From: a bacterium
GTDB taxonomy: Bacteria > CSSED10-310 > JAJRTK01
Direction of reading: 5' to 3'
DNA: 5,723 nt
NCBI GenBank assembly: GCA_024278345.1
Contig: JAJRTK010000205.1
Coordinates: 1-5,723, forward strand
The notes below the pieces were generated by a model, which was not told where the DNA came from, made no database searches, and was given only the letters and a program-made list of their open reading frames with translations. Both the position numbers and the translations under genes were made by a program. Below are positions 1 through 5,528 of this stretch, piece after piece. How positions within the stretch are numbered: position 1 is the first letter of the stretch; every line of letters starts with the position of its first letter.

Positions 1-25
1 GATCGATTCCAATCACTTTACCCAT
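1..25 (-). CDS. dnaK: DnaK (Hsp70 chaperone), N-terminal fragment cut by the window edge
   Basis: Only the first eight codons are present, reading MGKVIGID on the minus strand. This matches the highly conserved start of bacterial DnaK, where the beta-strand G-K-V-I-G-I-D leads into the LGTT phosphate-binding loop of the Hsp70 ATPase domain. An AGGAGG Shine-Dalgarno lies 10 nt upstream of the ATG, and the gene begins 19 nt after the grpE stop codon, the usual operon position. DnaK is the ATP-dependent cytoplasmic chaperone whose ADP release is driven by GrpE. The identification rests on eight residues plus the grpE/hrcA context; the rest of the gene lies outside the window, so its integrity cannot be judged. 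Confidence 0.9.
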
Positions 26-44: not shown

Positions 45-1415
45 CTATGCGCTAGATTCTTCATCACCTTTGAGACTGGCCTGACCTGGCTGCCCCCGTC
101 GCTCGACGTCCGGATGCCGAGGTTCCTCTACATTTCCCTCTGATGCGCAGGGCAAATGCTCAGGTTCCACGGCACTCTCGGAAAGATCCTCAGGCGCCGG
201 CAAGAGGGAAGACGGTCTCTTTGCCACCGCGACCATCGACTGCCGTATCACTTTATCCTGCAGGAGATAGCCGCGCCTGAAGTCTCGAACGACGGTATTC
301 TCGGGCAGCTCACTCCCCTCCTCCATCATCACGGCCTCGTGAATGTTGGGATCAAAAGGCTGTCCAACCGCTTCGATTGGTTTCAAACCAAACTTCATGA
401 ATACATTCATCATTTGGGCAAAGATCAAGTCAAAGCCCTTCACAAAACTTGCATCGATCTTGTGGTCGGCGCAACTCTTGAGTGCAGCTTCAAAAGCATC
501 GGCGACCAACAGCAGTTCTTTCAGGAGCTTTTCATTGGCGCTGCGGATCAATTCCGTCCGTTCTCGGCGCACGCGCTTCTTGAAATTGTCAAACTCCGCG
601 TGCAACCTCAAAACCCGCTCCCCAAAGTCGGCAATCTGCGCATCCTTCTGCCCCAGTGCCTCCTCCAACTCGCGAACTCTTTCTTCCTGGAGCGCCAGCG
701 AAGACTCTTCGACGCCCAAAAAATCCAGTTCTTCTGAATCGAAGCCCTCCAGAGCCTCCGCCTCCAATTGGCCCGCGCCAACATCTCTTGCCCGCTGGCT
801 GGCCTGAGCCTCCCGCGCCAACCGGCCAAGATCGGGGATCTCCCCCGGCTCCTCCACGACATCCGCTTCCACGGAATCCTCCGACGTTCCATCCGCCACT
901 TCTCCGCCATCAGCCTCGAGGGCCGGCTCGGAAAACACCGCCCCAGCCTCAACGTCCACCGACATCCCTCCAGAAACAGCGGCCCCCAGATCCGCAAGAA
1001 CAGAAGTAGCCCCCTCCTCTTTGGCCTCGGCACTCCTCGGGGCCTCCACCGATTCTTCAGGTTGACTCCCGGCGGCAGATCCAGTCGAGACCACTTCACC
1101 GGCGCCCTCCAGAGCGGCCGCCCCCCCCGCTGCACCGCTCCCGACTTGCAAACCATCGGGTTCAACGGTCTCCGATGCCACGAGCGGCTCTTCCACCGCC
1201 GGGGGTTTCTCTTCCCTGGAAAGATCCGAAGTCAACGCATTTTCCCGCGGACTGGCGGCCTCCGTTTCCTCCACAAGCCCCCCGGAACCTGCCTCCTCGG
1301 CAAGTTCGGCGCCCAGAAGCTCATTGTCCAACCGTTCCACGACCGGGGAGGAAAGCCCGACCCCATCGCCGACAGCACCGCCATCTATCAACTCACCCAC
1401 CACGCGATCCTTCAC
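45..1415 (-). CDS. grpE: GrpE, nucleotide exchange factor of DnaK, with a very long acidic N-terminal extension
   Basis: GrpE is a homodimeric cytoplasmic co-chaperone that releases ADP from DnaK. The canonical part lies at about residues 240-400: a heptad-like coiled coil (about 236-275), the motif LHAEFDNFKKR (271-281), the helical-bundle region (about 282-340), then the beta-wing with FDPNIHEAV (354-362) and GYLLQDKVIRQSMVAVAK (382-399). The protein is 456 residues, whereas GrpE is usually about 180-210. The excess is a low-complexity N-terminal region of about 235 residues, rich in Glu, Ala, Gly, Val, Asp and Ser and nearly free of Lys, plus a hydrophilic C-terminal tail of about 57 residues. 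The GTG start is preceded by AAGGAG at 9 nt. Met151 is a possible internal start, but its purine-rich stretch lies almost against the ATG, so I prefer the full length. The gene sits between hrcA (55 nt away) and dnaK (19 nt away). A run of eight G on the coding strand falls within the extension. Family assignment is secure; the role of the extension is unknown. Confidence 0.95.
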   Translation of the reverse strand: MKDRVVGELIDGGAVGDGVGLSSPVVERLDNELLGAELAEEAGSGGLVEETEAASPRENALTSDLSREEKPPAVEEPLVASETVEPDGLQVGSGAAGGAAALEGAGEVVSTGSAAGSQPEESVEAPRSAEAKEEGATSVLADLGAAVSGGMSVDVEAGAVFSEPALEADGGEVADGTSEDSVEADVVEEPGEIPDLGRLAREAQASQRARDVGAGQLEAEALEGFDSEELDFLGVEESSLALQEERVRELEEALGQKDAQIADFGERVLRLHAEFDNFKKRVRRERTELIRSANEKLLKELLLVADAFEAALKSCADHKIDASFVKGFDLIFAQMMNVFMKFGLKPIEAVGQPFDPNIHEAVMMEEGSELPENTVVRDFRRGYLLQDKVIRQSMVAVAKRPSSLLPAPEDLSESAVEPEHLPCASEGNVEEPRHPDVERRGQPGQASLKGDEESSA

Positions 1416-1424
1416 GTTTCGAAT

Positions 1425-1430
1425 CTCCTT
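1425..1430 (-). promoter_or_regulatory. Ribosome binding site deciding the GTG start of grpE
   Basis: The minus strand reads AAGGAG, 9 nt before the GTG at 1415. It supports the far-upstream GTG as the real start and hence the long form of GrpE. It lies within the 55-nt hrcA-grpE gap, in which I see no terminator or clear promoter. Confidence 0.7.
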
Positions 1431-1470
1431 GCTCTATCAAAACCTCACTGTCAACAAACTCGGAAAATAT

Positions 1471-2562
1471 CTATGTCATCGATGACTCACCTTCCGCGGA
1501 CAGATCTTCCCTCGAAATGAACCGAGTCAACATCTGGCCCGCAAACCCAACCCAAGCGGCGATCTTCGGATAGTTCATACGCATCGGGCCCACAACCCCC
1601 ACGGTGCCGACATTCCGGCCATCGTATTTGTAGGAGGCCGATACCAGCGTGAAATCTCGAAACTCTGGGAGGTCGAGCTCCGAACCAATGAGAACTTCGA
1701 TGGAATCATTCTCCACACAAGAATTGAGAATCTCCAAGAGATGAGATTTCTGTTCAAAAGCCCCGTAGATCTGGCGCATTCTATCGATATCCGCAAACTC
1801 AGGCTGCCCCAGCATCTTCGCCGTGGAACCGATGTGAAGGTCATCCGCCGCGGCATCGCTCCCAAACGCCTGCCGAGCCAGATCAAAAGCATCTTTTAAC
1901 ATCTTGTCGTAAAGATCCTTGTCCTCCCGCATCCGGGTTAGAAGAAGCTCCTTGATGGCACTCAACGGGAGACTCCCGAGTTCGTTGTTTAGCAACCGAC
2001 TGATTTTCCGAAGCTTTCCCTGCGACAGCTCCACCCTTGTCTGCACCACCTTCTGGTGCACCAGCCCGAATTCCGAAACGAAAATCGCCAACACACGACA
2101 ACCATGCAAATGGACAAACTCGATGTGCTTAAACACGGTGCGACCGATGTCCGGCAGTGTAAAGACCGCGGTGCATCCCGTCTCCGCGGAGAGGACACTG
2201 GACGTCTGTTCCAGCAGAATTTCCGGCGGTACCTCATTTGAAATCCGCGAAAGGAAAATTTGACGCTGGTTCGGGGTTAACAAGACATCGGAACCCATGA
2301 CCAAGCGATCGACATAAATCCGATACGCTAAGTCAGTTGGCTGGCGCCCCGCCGACGTGTGCGGCTGATAGAGAAACCCCATTTCCTCCAGATCCGCCAT
2401 GGCGTTTCGAAGTGTCGCCGGTGACAAGCGCCGATTCATTTGTTTCGAAAGCTGCCTGGAACTCACGGGCCGGGCCGTCTCCACATAGAGGTGGATGATG
2501 CTTCGCAGCACTTCAAACTGGCGTGCCGTCAGTTGTTCGTAGCACAAATGCCTGATAGCCAA
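1471..2562 (-). CDS. hrcA: HrcA, heat-inducible transcription repressor
   Basis: HrcA is the dimeric repressor of class I heat-shock operons; in known cases it binds the CIRCE inverted repeat and depends on GroEL for folding. From the start chosen here the protein has 363 residues, slightly above the usual ~340-350. The N-terminal winged helix-turn-helix is clear: LTARQFEVLRSII, then PVSSRQLSK (about 32-40), LSPATLRNAMADLEEMG (46-62) and the family signature PHTSAGRQPTDLAYRIYVDRL (from 67). A central GAF-like part follows, and the C-terminal signature VGVVGPMRMNYP sits near 321-332. The frame stays open upstream to a GTG at 2646, but those 28 residues do not resemble HrcA. A TTG at 2562 has GGAGG 9 nt upstream and places the HTH at the usual distance from the N-terminus, so I chose it. 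It is the first gene of the hrcA-grpE-dnaK block. I see no CIRCE upstream, so its operator is not evident. Confidence 0.95.
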   Translation of the reverse strand: MAIRHLCYEQLTARQFEVLRSIIHLYVETARPVSSRQLSKQMNRRLSPATLRNAMADLEEMGFLYQPHTSAGRQPTDLAYRIYVDRLVMGSDVLLTPNQRQIFLSRISNEVPPEILLEQTSSVLSAETGCTAVFTLPDIGRTVFKHIEFVHLHGCRVLAIFVSEFGLVHQKVVQTRVELSQGKLRKISRLLNNELGSLPLSAIKELLLTRMREDKDLYDKMLKDAFDLARQAFGSDAAADDLHIGSTAKMLGQPEFADIDRMRQIYGAFEQKSHLLEILNSCVENDSIEVLIGSELDLPEFRDFTLVSASYKYDGRNVGTVGVVGPMRMNYPKIAAWVGFAGQMLTRFISREDLSAEGESSMT

Positions 2563-2571
2563 TGCCAGAAA

Positions 2572-2576
2572 CCTCC
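2572..2576 (-). promoter_or_regulatory. Ribosome binding site deciding the TTG start of hrcA
   Basis: The minus strand reads GGAGG 9 nt before the TTG at 2562. No comparable purine tract stands at a proper distance before the longer GTG candidate (2646) or the next TTG (2547), so this site fixes the most likely start. Confidence 0.7.
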
Positions 2577-2647
2577 ACAAGAAAATCGATCGGCAGCCCA
2601 CGGTCCACGTCGCGGATGTTGTTGCTTTGAGTGGATCAGTGTACACC

Positions 2648-2665
2648 CATTTTAATCATTTTAAC
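2648..2665. repeat. Tandem 9-bp direct repeat (CATTTTAAT, CATTTTAAC)
   Basis: Two adjacent copies differ only in the last base. On the minus strand this reads as two TTAAAATG units, about 85-100 nt upstream of the hrcA TTG and beside the GTGTACAC palindrome. A tandem repeat of about one helical turn upstream of a repressor gene could be an operator or part of an AT-rich promoter (TAAAAT resembles a -10 box). It could also be chance in an AT-rich stretch. The repeat is seen directly; any function is inference. Confidence 0.5.
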
Positions 2666-2673
2666 CATACCAG

Positions 2674-2701
2674 ACTATCCTCCGAACTCGAACAACTTCA
2701 A
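2674..2701 (-). promoter_or_regulatory. Weak promoter candidate for the hrcA-grpE-dnaK block
   Basis: On the minus strand TTGAAG (2696-2701, four of six bases of the -35 consensus) is followed after 16 nt by GATAGT (2674-2679, four of six of the -10 consensus), about 110 nt upstream of the hrcA start. With the preceding base the -35 reads CTTGAAG, which also resembles a heat-shock sigma-32 -35 element, but I do not see the CCCCAT-type -10. The match is weak and other spacings in this AT-rich stretch could be argued. Confidence 0.25.
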
Positions 2702-2866
2702 GATCGGAGCAAAACTGTCCAATTGTTGCCACCGCCTCTGTTCATTGTAGGCCAGAATTGGGAAATCTTCGCCACATCCTATCTTGGCATTGCGACGCCT
2801 GGGCAAATCCGAGTCGTTTTCTTTTTCGAGATTCTTCCCCGAAACCGCCCCACGTAGCCATTCACC

Positions 2867-4987
2867 ATGCTCCTCGAACAAGTTTCTACAGCCGGCAGCC
2901 TCCTTCGCACCCTTGCTGGATTGCTCGCCCTGAATCTGCCTCTCTTCCTTGGGGCTTGGCTGGGAAGCCGAATCTGCTCCGCCTTCATCCCCAAGGCCAA
3001 AAGCCCACCCTTCTCCCAGGCCTCCGCGCCCCAGCAGTTTTGCCACGGCATCGTCATCGGCTGGAGCCAGCTCGTCCTTACTTTCGTTTTCCTTGGAAGC
3101 GTCGGCGTTCTCAGCTTTTGGACGGCAACGGGTCTCCAATGGCTGGCGCTCTTGGGCTGGATTCTCCTCTCCCGGAGGATCCCAGAGCCCGGCGAAACCC
3201 AAAAGACTGCCACCGCTGGAAAACTACCTGCCCTTCCGGGCTCCCAAACCGAGGTGAGCGCGGTATGGGGAAAAACAGCCCACCGGCGGAGGCGAGCGCT
3301 TGCCGGATGGAGCCTCCTAGTCCTTGGCTTGACTCTTGGACCCTGGTTTCAACAACTTTCCATGCCCCCTGTCATGGAAGATAGCCTTACCTACCACATG
3401 AGCTTCCCGGCAGAATGGCTGGAAAGTGGCGAAATCCGGATGCCAATCCAGCACGACGCCGACATGGGGCCCACCTACTACCCGTTCGCCGGAGAAGTTC
3501 TCCTGGGCTGGTGGATGCTGACGTTCGGGAGCGATCAATTCGCCACGGGCAGCGGGATTCTCTGGATTCCGGTTCTTTTGGCGGCTCTCTTGGCGGCGAC
3601 GGGCTTGCTTGGATGCGGTTCCTCCTCGGCGGCGGCGGCATGGGCTTTCTTGGCGACTTCTCCCCTGGTGGTCTGGCTCACTCTGGTTGCGTTCAACGAT
3701 CTGGCACTCACCGCGGCACTCCTGCTGGCCCTAGCAACGGCCCTGCAATTTTGCCGGAATCCCGGCTGGGTGACGGCGACCCTCTCAGGAGCAGCCCTGG
3801 GGCTCGTGGTGGGAACAAAATACTCCGGGCTGGCCTTTGGGAGCGGGGTCGCCTTGATCGCCCTGGCTGGGCTCATCCAAGAAATCCTGTCCAACGGGAT
3901 GAAGAGAGCCAGCGCCCTCGCCCTGGCCATGGGTGGAACAGGCTTGGCCATAGGCGGATATGCCTATGCGCGAAACCTTCTTCTCACGGGCAGCCCGATC
4001 TATCCGGCGCATCTTGAGCTCTTGGGTTTCCGGGTCTTTGACGGGCTCTATGGTGTCCAGAACTGGCTGGCACACCCCCACCACCAATTCGACTGGCGGA
4101 AGTTTCTCCTGACAGCACCGGGTGCGGCTCGCTTCGGCTGGCCCGCCATCTGGGGTCTCCCGCTCCTGGCAGCGGTTTCGGCGGTTCTTCTCCTCCTCCG
4201 GAAGAAAGTTCTCCTGCTTCTGCCTCTGGCGGCTGGATTCATTGGGCTGGCAGCCTTTTGGACCAGTTCCCCCTACCGCCACGATCCAAGATTCTACATT
4301 CCCGTGCTGGCCCTCATGGCGGCGGCGGCAATCCCGGCTCTCGACGCACTTTCCAGGCGCACTGGCCGCCTCTTCGAGATCCTCTTCATCCCGGCACTCC
4401 TGGCCTGCTTCGCCCGGGCCGAATCCGGCCTGGGCTCCCAAACCCAGTATCTGGTCACCGGGGGACTGCTTCTCCTCTGGGCTTTCCTGCCAACCCGCAC
4501 AGCCAGAATGCTCACCGGAAAAACCGCCACGGCGTGCGCCCTGGGAGCGGCGATTCTCGGACTCGCCCTGGCCCAGCCCAGCTACCTCGAAAACCGTTCC
4601 GCGCGGTGGGAAACGATCTACGCCCGGCAACGGGGCAAGATATGGTCCGCCGTCCACCGCATCAGCCCGCCGGGCGGCCTCACCGTCGCGGCCGCGGGAA
4701 CGAGCAATACCTACCCGCTCTACGGAGCCGACCTCCGAAACCGGGTTCTCTTCGTTCCCAGAAACTCCCATGGCCGAAGCATCGCCTATGGTTTCGGCTA
4801 CCCGTTCGGCTCCCCCTTCGACAATCCCACTCCCCAGGCCTGGCTCAAAAACCTGGAGGCTCTCGCCGTCGATCTTTTGGTTCTTGGTCCAGGGCGATGC
4901 CCCGAGCGCGCCTGGATCCGCGGCAATCCCACGCGGTTCCACCTGGAGCTGCAAGCCGGTGGATACTCCCTCTATCGAGTGCTCTGA
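2867..4987 (+). CDS. Polytopic membrane protein, GT-C fold glycosyltransferase-like (GT39/ArnT-like)
   Basis: The 706-residue protein has roughly 14-16 hydrophobic segments and a soluble C-terminal part of about 135 residues (from ~571). GT-C enzymes transfer sugars from polyprenyl-phosphate donors on the outer face of the cytoplasmic membrane. Supporting features: the acidic pair E171-D172 in PPVMEDSLTYHM, just after a membrane segment at about 145-164, is placed like the catalytic acidic motif of the first external loop; N277-D278 (AFNDLAL), GTKYSGL (316-322), YARNLLLTGSPIYP (367-380) and SPYRHDPRFYIP (468-479) are placed as in GT39-like bacterial membrane proteins. Three additional hydrophobic segments (about 12-36, 61-84, 86-101) and a polar linker with an RRRR cluster (about 103-143) precede the catalytic-type core. 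The ATG has no clear Shine-Dalgarno, so the start is less certain than the frame. trmL follows after 43 nt. Donor and acceptor cannot be told; an oligosaccharide or lipid glycosylation role is inferred from the family only. Confidence 0.75.
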   Translation: MLLEQVSTAGSLLRTLAGLLALNLPLFLGAWLGSRICSAFIPKAKSPPFSQASAPQQFCHGIVIGWSQLVLTFVFLGSVGVLSFWTATGLQWLALLGWILLSRRIPEPGETQKTATAGKLPALPGSQTEVSAVWGKTAHRRRRALAGWSLLVLGLTLGPWFQQLSMPPVMEDSLTYHMSFPAEWLESGEIRMPIQHDADMGPTYYPFAGEVLLGWWMLTFGSDQFATGSGILWIPVLLAALLAATGLLGCGSSSAAAAWAFLATSPLVVWLTLVAFNDLALTAALLLALATALQFCRNPGWVTATLSGAALGLVVGTKYSGLAFGSGVALIALAGLIQEILSNGMKRASALALAMGGTGLAIGGYAYARNLLLTGSPIYPAHLELLGFRVFDGLYGVQNWLAHPHHQFDWRKFLLTAPGAARFGWPAIWGLPLLAAVSAVLLLLRKKVLLLLPLAAGFIGLAAFWTSSPYRHDPRFYIPVLALMAAAAIPALDALSRRTGRLFEILFIPALLACFARAESGLGSQTQYLVTGGLLLLWAFLPTRTARMLTGKTATACALGAAILGLALAQPSYLENRSARWETIYARQRGKIWSAVHRISPPGGLTVAAAGTSNTYPLYGADLRNRVLFVPRNSHGRSIAYGFGYPFGSPFDNPTPQAWLKNLEALAVDLLVLGPGRCPERAWIRGNPTRFHLELQAGGYSLYRVL

Positions 4988-5030: not shown

Positions 5031-5528
5031 ATGAACCCCCTTCCATTCAATATCGTCCTTTTCCAACCTGAAATCCCCAACAATACCGGGGCCGTGGGCC
5101 GGATCTGCGTGGGAACCGGCAGCCTCCTCCACCTGGTTCGGCCGCTGGGGTTCCGGATCGACGACAAGGCGGTGCGCCGAGCCGGGCTCGATTACTGGAA
5201 GGACGTCGAACTCCGGGTCCACGACAGCCTCAAGGAAGCCCTGGCCACGGCGGACCGGGTCCACTACTTCTCGACGAAGGGAGCCAGGCTCTACACGGAC
5301 TGCTCGTTTCAGCCGGGAGACTATCTGGTCTTCGGCCGCGAAACGGCCGGCCTTCCCCGGGAGCTCCTGGCCAGGCGACGGGAAGACAGCTACACGATTC
5401 CCATTTGGGGCCCCATCCGTTCCCACAATCTTGCCAACGCGGTGGCCATCATCATCTATGAGGCATTCCGGCAGGTGGGCTTTCCGCCCAAAACGGGAGA
5501 CCTTCCATCAGCGGGACAGATGCCCTGA
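5031..5528 (+). CDS. trmL: tRNA (cytidine/uridine-34-2'-O)-methyltransferase, SPOUT family
   Basis: TrmL methylates the 2'-O of the wobble nucleotide (C34 or cmnm5U34) of certain leucine tRNAs with S-adenosylmethionine, as a homodimer in the cytoplasm. The 165-residue product is close to the usual ~155-165. All family blocks are present: NIVLFQPEIPNNTGAVGRIC (7-26, with the NTG and Arg24), LHLVRPLGFRIDDKAVRRAGLDYW (33-56), and the trefoil-knot motifs YLVFGRETAGLP (98-109) and IRSHNLANAVAIIIYEAFRQ (129-148). In the last block His132 stands where Leu or Met is usual (RS-L/M-N); otherwise the SAM-binding knot appears intact. The ATG has GGAG at 7 nt and the N-terminus matches the family, so the start is sound. 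It follows the membrane protein gene by 43 nt with no visible terminator between, so co-transcription is plausible. Related SPOUT enzymes such as TrmJ or TrmH are longer and fit less well. Confidence 0.93.
   Translation: MNPLPFNIVLFQPEIPNNTGAVGRICVGTGSLLHLVRPLGFRIDDKAVRRAGLDYWKDVELRVHDSLKEALATADRVHYFSTKGARLYTDCSFQPGDYLVFGRETAGLPRELLARRREDSYTIPIWGPIRSHNLANAVAIIIYEAFRQVGFPPKTGDLPSAGQMP

Follow-up and report, generated by a model that had tools for sequence, protein, structure and literature searches.

The N-terminal tails of GrpE proteins are about 40-50 residues long, a length that reviews describe as well conserved (PMC8215388, PMC12987570). These tails enter the DnaK cleft weakly and help to displace bound peptide via acid-flanked hydrophobic residues (PMC12915176), and deletion of the N-terminal tail blocks release in the case of Mycobacterium tuberculosis GrpE (PMC10803776). 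According to an opposing view, peptide displacement by the GrpE tail has not been directly shown (PMC12987570), and debate persists on whether and how the tail displaces clients. DnaK carries a tail of its own. It is acidic and disordered, makes contact with misfolded clients, and is credited with better refolding and with survival under stress (PMC8215388, citing Smock 2011; PMC7918210). In Myxococcus xanthus, the C-terminal tail reportedly does not account for how the two DnaKs of that species differ (PMC11019930).

The window, by which we mean the whole 5,723-nucleotide stretch of bacterial DNA analysed here, carries on its minus strand the gene order hrcA-grpE-dnaK. This is the neighbourhood typical of GrpE, adjacent to dnaK and with hrcA upstream. 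The features referred to below are the following.

1..25, minus strand: opening codons of dnaK (MGKVIGID), cut at the contig end, with eight codons present
45..1415, minus strand: grpE, 456 amino acids, GTG start (Pfam GrpE profile and open reading frame)
48..215, minus strand: acidic C-terminal tail of GrpE, residues 401-456, with 420-456 predicted disordered (AlphaFold2, charge count)
216..704, minus strand: GrpE core, residues 238-400, with long helix, bundle and beta wing (PF01025; PDB 4ani and 1dkg; AlphaFold2)
750..830, minus strand: predicted helix, residues 196-222, net charge 0, holding 4 of the 9 Arg of the arm (AlphaFold2, charge count)
840..1415, minus strand: N-terminal arm, residues 1-192, net charge -37, predicted disordered (AlphaFold2, charge count)
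1425..1430, minus strand: ribosome-binding site AAGGAG, 9 nt before the grpE GTG
1471..2646, minus strand: hrcA, heat-shock repressor, heading the gene run (TIGR00331, 8.9e-84, residues 40-375)

The hrcA stop lies 55 nt upstream of grpE and the dnaK ATG 19 nt downstream of it; the true start of hrcA may be internal to its open reading frame. A CIRCE-type HrcA operator is absent from the window with up to 3 mismatches allowed, including the region upstream of hrcA (2500-2900, minus strand), so HrcA control of the operon is assumed from gene order only. Elsewhere in the window, the plus strand at 2867-4987 encodes a protein of 706 residues that resembles a mannosyltransferase (PMT) only weakly and is followed by a TrmL-type tRNA methyltransferase (5031-5528). 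A 250-codon open frame runs antisense to the GrpE arm (768-1520, plus strand) and is weakly coding-like in parts (at best 0.17, -0.02 and 0.23 bits per codon), as is expected opposite a GC-rich gene.

The preliminary description of this DNA, made from the letters alone, recognised an intact GrpE core, and the profile comparison agrees: residues 238-399 match Pfam PF01025 at 3e-47, with 160.8 bits against a cut-off of 25.8 and coverage of profile positions 4-165 of 165. H272-K279, R281, G327, P356, A361, G382, Y383 and R391 are invariant in a 7-sequence alignment, and the positions of the DnaK contact and the core are present, including the HAEFDNFKKR motif of the helix and the Gly and Arg residues in the bundle and wing. 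An AlphaFold2 model built on the same number of aligned sequences renders residues 238-400 confidently, and the long helix, bundle and beta wing appear as expected. On these features the protein is a true GrpE, of the predicted dimeric nucleotide exchange factor type.

Ahead of the Pfam core stand 237 residues with a net charge of -45. This arm is made up largely of Glu (41), Ala (37), Gly (33), Val (26) and Asp (16), with 3 Lys and 9 Arg, so that 57 D/E face 12 K/R; the 56-residue C-terminal tail has a net charge of -9. The strongly acidic, nearly Lys-free character first attributed to the arm, and the presence of a tail, are thus borne out by the counts. The proposal that the arm is disordered holds for most of its length. 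Nearly all of residues 1-192, and of 420-456 in the tail, have pLDDT below 50, taken here as a proxy for disorder; residues 196-222 are predicted to form a helix of modest confidence (pLDDT about 49-70), and the charge-hydropathy measure of the arm is borderline because of its Ala and Val. Profile searches of the arm returned no domain or known motif. DNA tandem repeats were sought as its origin and none were found within it, the sole repeat-like trace being two 22-nt stretches at 744 and 1104 that are 86% alike.

The length of the arm depends on where translation starts and on whether the frame is continuous. The grpE GTG has the best ribosome site among the candidate starts, and of 12,309 start-like codons sampled from this genome's DNA only 1.2% have a site match of 6 nt or better. 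An in-frame stop lies just six codons before the GTG, which gives an open frame of 462 codons. Under a codon model derived from 78 of the genome's own ORFs (gene median 0.20 bits per codon), the three thirds of the arm score 0.29, 0.16 and 0.33 in frame and both other same-strand frames are negative. Such coding-type usage throughout the arm argues against two frames having been joined by a sequencing error, one of the two ways in which the preliminary description considered that the arm might prove spurious. The tail scores about zero (-0.04) and is in frame to the stop, 19 nt before the dnaK ATG. The other way, an internal start such as Met151, fares no better: Met151 has no usable ribosome site, and GTG153 and GTG182 are preceded by GGAGG at no more than chance level, with 3 internal sites of such quality seen against 2.8 expected after synonymous shuffling. 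Since internal sites are as frequent as in shuffled sequences, a shorter second GrpE product is possible but not indicated.

An arm this long had been called exceptional, and comparison upholds the word. In a GrpE search over 386 genomes the window's open frame is the longest among the best 150 matches listed, a list ranked by score in which divergent GrpEs are under-sampled. The other 149 open frames have a median of 211, a 95th percentile of 303 and a maximum of 410 codons, figures that overstate protein length: the 410-codon frame opens with non-GrpE residues, and from its likely start the protein would have 242 aa. When starts are called by ribosome site, the sampled GrpEs that do not belong to the long-armed groups span 160-288 aa. 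Where the typical N-tail has 40-50 residues, the Pfam core of the window's GrpE is preceded by 237, and no structure is predicted for 192 of these. The length of this GrpE is therefore real and extreme. In another lineage, the GrpEs of loci L047 and L050 bear tails built of ADQ repeats.

The genome of the window (G000) encodes two DnaKs, on contigs C79 and C202. C79 opens in frame at TNSCVAVMEG of a DnaK and very probably continues the window's dnaK over a gap of a few bases, as the sequence at the two contig ends suggests; the contigs do not overlap. The C79 DnaK matches PF00012 with 834.6 bits at positions 9-598, taking in nucleotide domain, linker and substrate domain, and keeps the GrpE-facing loop ITADETGPKHLN and the interdomain linker DIILLDVTPLSLG (ILLDVTPLSL). 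It stops directly after the lid helices, at ...TQAIYTASKGLSKSGA with the final residues TASKGLSKSGA, and is missing the acidic, disordered C-terminal tail, some 30 residues long, of a canonical DnaK. The C202 gene is full-length, is followed by two J-domain protein genes, and encodes a DnaK in which that tail is present (...ADDVVDAEFEDVD, ending DDVVDAEFEDVD). A second GrpE of the same genome is encoded on contig C57, beside a J-domain protein gene; at this locus (L002, 1474-2589, minus strand) the GrpE arm of some 144 residues is rich in predicted coiled coil, and the likely start MFPHDRALEEWW gives a protein of 288 aa. Beyond what the preliminary description proposed, the long arm thus appears to belong to a second DnaK/GrpE pair whose DnaK has no acidic tail of its own.

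Below the phylum, searches by genus, by family, by order and by class yielded the window's own genome and no other; the phylum sample comprises eight genomes. In six of these (G000, G002, G003, G004, G005 and G007) grpE is paired with dnaK and encodes a protein of 336-456 aa, with an arm of 101-237 residues and a tail of 57-85 residues, and the operonic DnaK lacks the DVVDAEFE tail in 6/6, some of these DnaKs retaining an acidic end of 10-25 residues (e.g. G004, G005). A second, tailed DnaK was found in G000, G002, G003 and G007, and G006 has one DnaK of each kind. Arms of 35-73 residues are the rule among GrpE paralogues elsewhere in these genomes; the coiled-coil arm on C57 departs from it, as does one of 88 residues in G006, where the neighbouring DnaK is tailed. 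In the DnaK tree a 100/99 branch divides tailed from tail-less types and the six operonic phylum DnaKs cluster with weaker support (84/92); the GrpE core tree, built for the orthology of the operonic GrpEs, is largely unresolved. The same combination is seen outside the phylum, in two genomes of family f132 (GrpE of 372 and 373 aa, DnaK without the DVVDAEFE ending) and in G042 (GrpE of 336 aa, DnaK with a different acidic ending in place of DVVDAEFE). Among GrpEs encoded beside a complete DnaK, the partner lacks the DVVDAEFE tail in 9/9 cases where GrpE has at least 300 aa and in 6/27 where it is shorter (p=5e-5, or 0.015 with one case per lineage), the 300-aa cut having been picked after the data were seen, on a small sample and with ancestry corrected crudely. 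The six sampled tail-less operonic DnaKs with GrpEs of ordinary length (L118, L121, L122, L134, L146 and L152) indicate that the link is one-way: tail loss needs no long arm. What is new here is that the long-armed GrpE is linked with a second DnaK devoid of the tail.

No match above chance was obtained between the window arm and the arms of f132 or G007, and the few low p values against other relatives were lost after accounting for the number of pairs tested. Two motifs that the window arm seemed, to the eye, to have in common with the long f132 arms (DGVGLSSPVV / DGIGLESPAV, and EIPDxGx[IL]A) were rejected, the best ungapped match having p=0.35 against shuffled arms. The arms of families f2 and f3 share the motif LGDDYITSALAALE / DVDADIASALAAIE (p 0.01-0.03 between families; L011, L015, L017, L020), which may be a candidate binding site. 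Across the phylum, what is kept is the length and acidity of the arm rather than its sequence.

We propose, with a probability of roughly 40%, that the GrpE arms supply the acidic disordered segment lost by the operonic DnaK and act near its substrate-binding domain. The window's GrpE would serve the second, divergent DnaK encoded beside grpE. Its core would grip the DnaK nucleotide domain, with the two arms anchored at the starts of the long helices, next to the substrate-binding domain, where they would keep acidic disordered chain highly concentrated. In that position the arms would be weak competitors for the substrate cleft, like the short tail in E. coli, and would touch unfolded clients in place of the absent DnaK tail. 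In effect the acidic segment would have shifted from the chaperone to the exchange factor, tying client contact to the step of exchange and release. Given the roles of the two tails in the literature and the sequence facts above, it is the most economical idea that the arms provide what the DnaK lacks. Its fuller form, an ancient second DnaK/GrpE pair in which DnaK gave up its acidic, disordered, client-contacting tail and the GrpE arms assumed its role, so that the exchange factor holds clients during release, is doubtful.

The main rival, which we regard as possible though tentative, sees the arm as an acidic bristle under little constraint: low-complexity sequence that has grown at one terminus of an essential protein and is tolerated, or helps slightly with solubility, but has no specific part in the DnaK cycle and is free in length while it stays acidic and disordered. 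An arm whose sequence is unconserved even where length and charge are, and which is rich in Ala, Glu, Gly and Val, is what this would look like, and unrelated genomes have GrpE arms of 66-90 residues with a similar make-up. The distribution of long arms speaks against it: they accompany a tail-less DnaK in three lineages, and the phylum paralogues away from such a DnaK are mostly short-armed, with the two exceptions given above. The motif kept in common by the f2 and f3 arms also fits a bristle poorly.

It is unlikely that the arm acts only as the short E. coli tail does, that is, as a tethered substrate mimic whose acid-flanked hydrophobic clusters (e.g. EADVVEEP, residues 183-190) enter the DnaK cleft, the extra length being slack or room for several sites. 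Residues 17-IIM-19 of E. coli GrpE have that role (PMC12915176), the M. tuberculosis deletion points the same way, and the arm holds six clusters of this DnaK-binding type. Six, however, compares with 3.7 expected from composition (p=0.14), so that enrichment was rejected, and some 40 residues suffice in E. coli, which leaves 237 unexplained. A binding platform or thermosensor extension for another partner is very unlikely: the helix of net charge 0 at 196-222, between the acidic arm and the coiled coil, could dock something, but its prediction is of only modest confidence and the profile searches of the arm were empty. Least probable of all is that something other than the long form is the main product, with translation from inside, for example from GTG182 (5-nt ribosome-site match, 5 nt upstream) to give a 275-residue GrpE with a 56-residue arm, or that both forms are made, given the start and codon evidence above and the long arms of orthologues in five genomes, whose starts lie close to the end of the preceding gene.

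The locus bears on the debate over client displacement. Here nature pairs a GrpE whose arm is about five times the usual length with a DnaK that has no tail, a ready-made contrast for telling apart what the two tails do, and the ordinary DnaK in the same genome makes tail swaps and deletions testable within one genome.

Among described systems, MXAN_6672 of Myxococcus xanthus is likewise an additional GrpE that shares its operon with a specialised second DnaK, MxDnaK2; the excerpted report mentions neither a long arm nor HrcA, and the two systems are likened by description only (PMC11019930). The GrpE of Geobacillus kaustophilus (4ani) has the same core, to which window residues 236-398 align at 7.9e-29, as does E. 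coli GrpE complexed with DnaK (1dkg), to which residues 228-400 align at 1.2e-19. Their chains in the PDB have 213 and 197 aa, and the window's GrpE adds to this plan its 237-residue arm and 56-residue C-terminal tail. In having both additions it resembles Mycobacterium tuberculosis GrpE (8gb3), which carries disordered stretches of 44 residues at the N-terminus and 48 at the C-terminus (PMC10803776); that protein has 235 aa in total, and its N-terminal arm is about five times shorter than the one described here.
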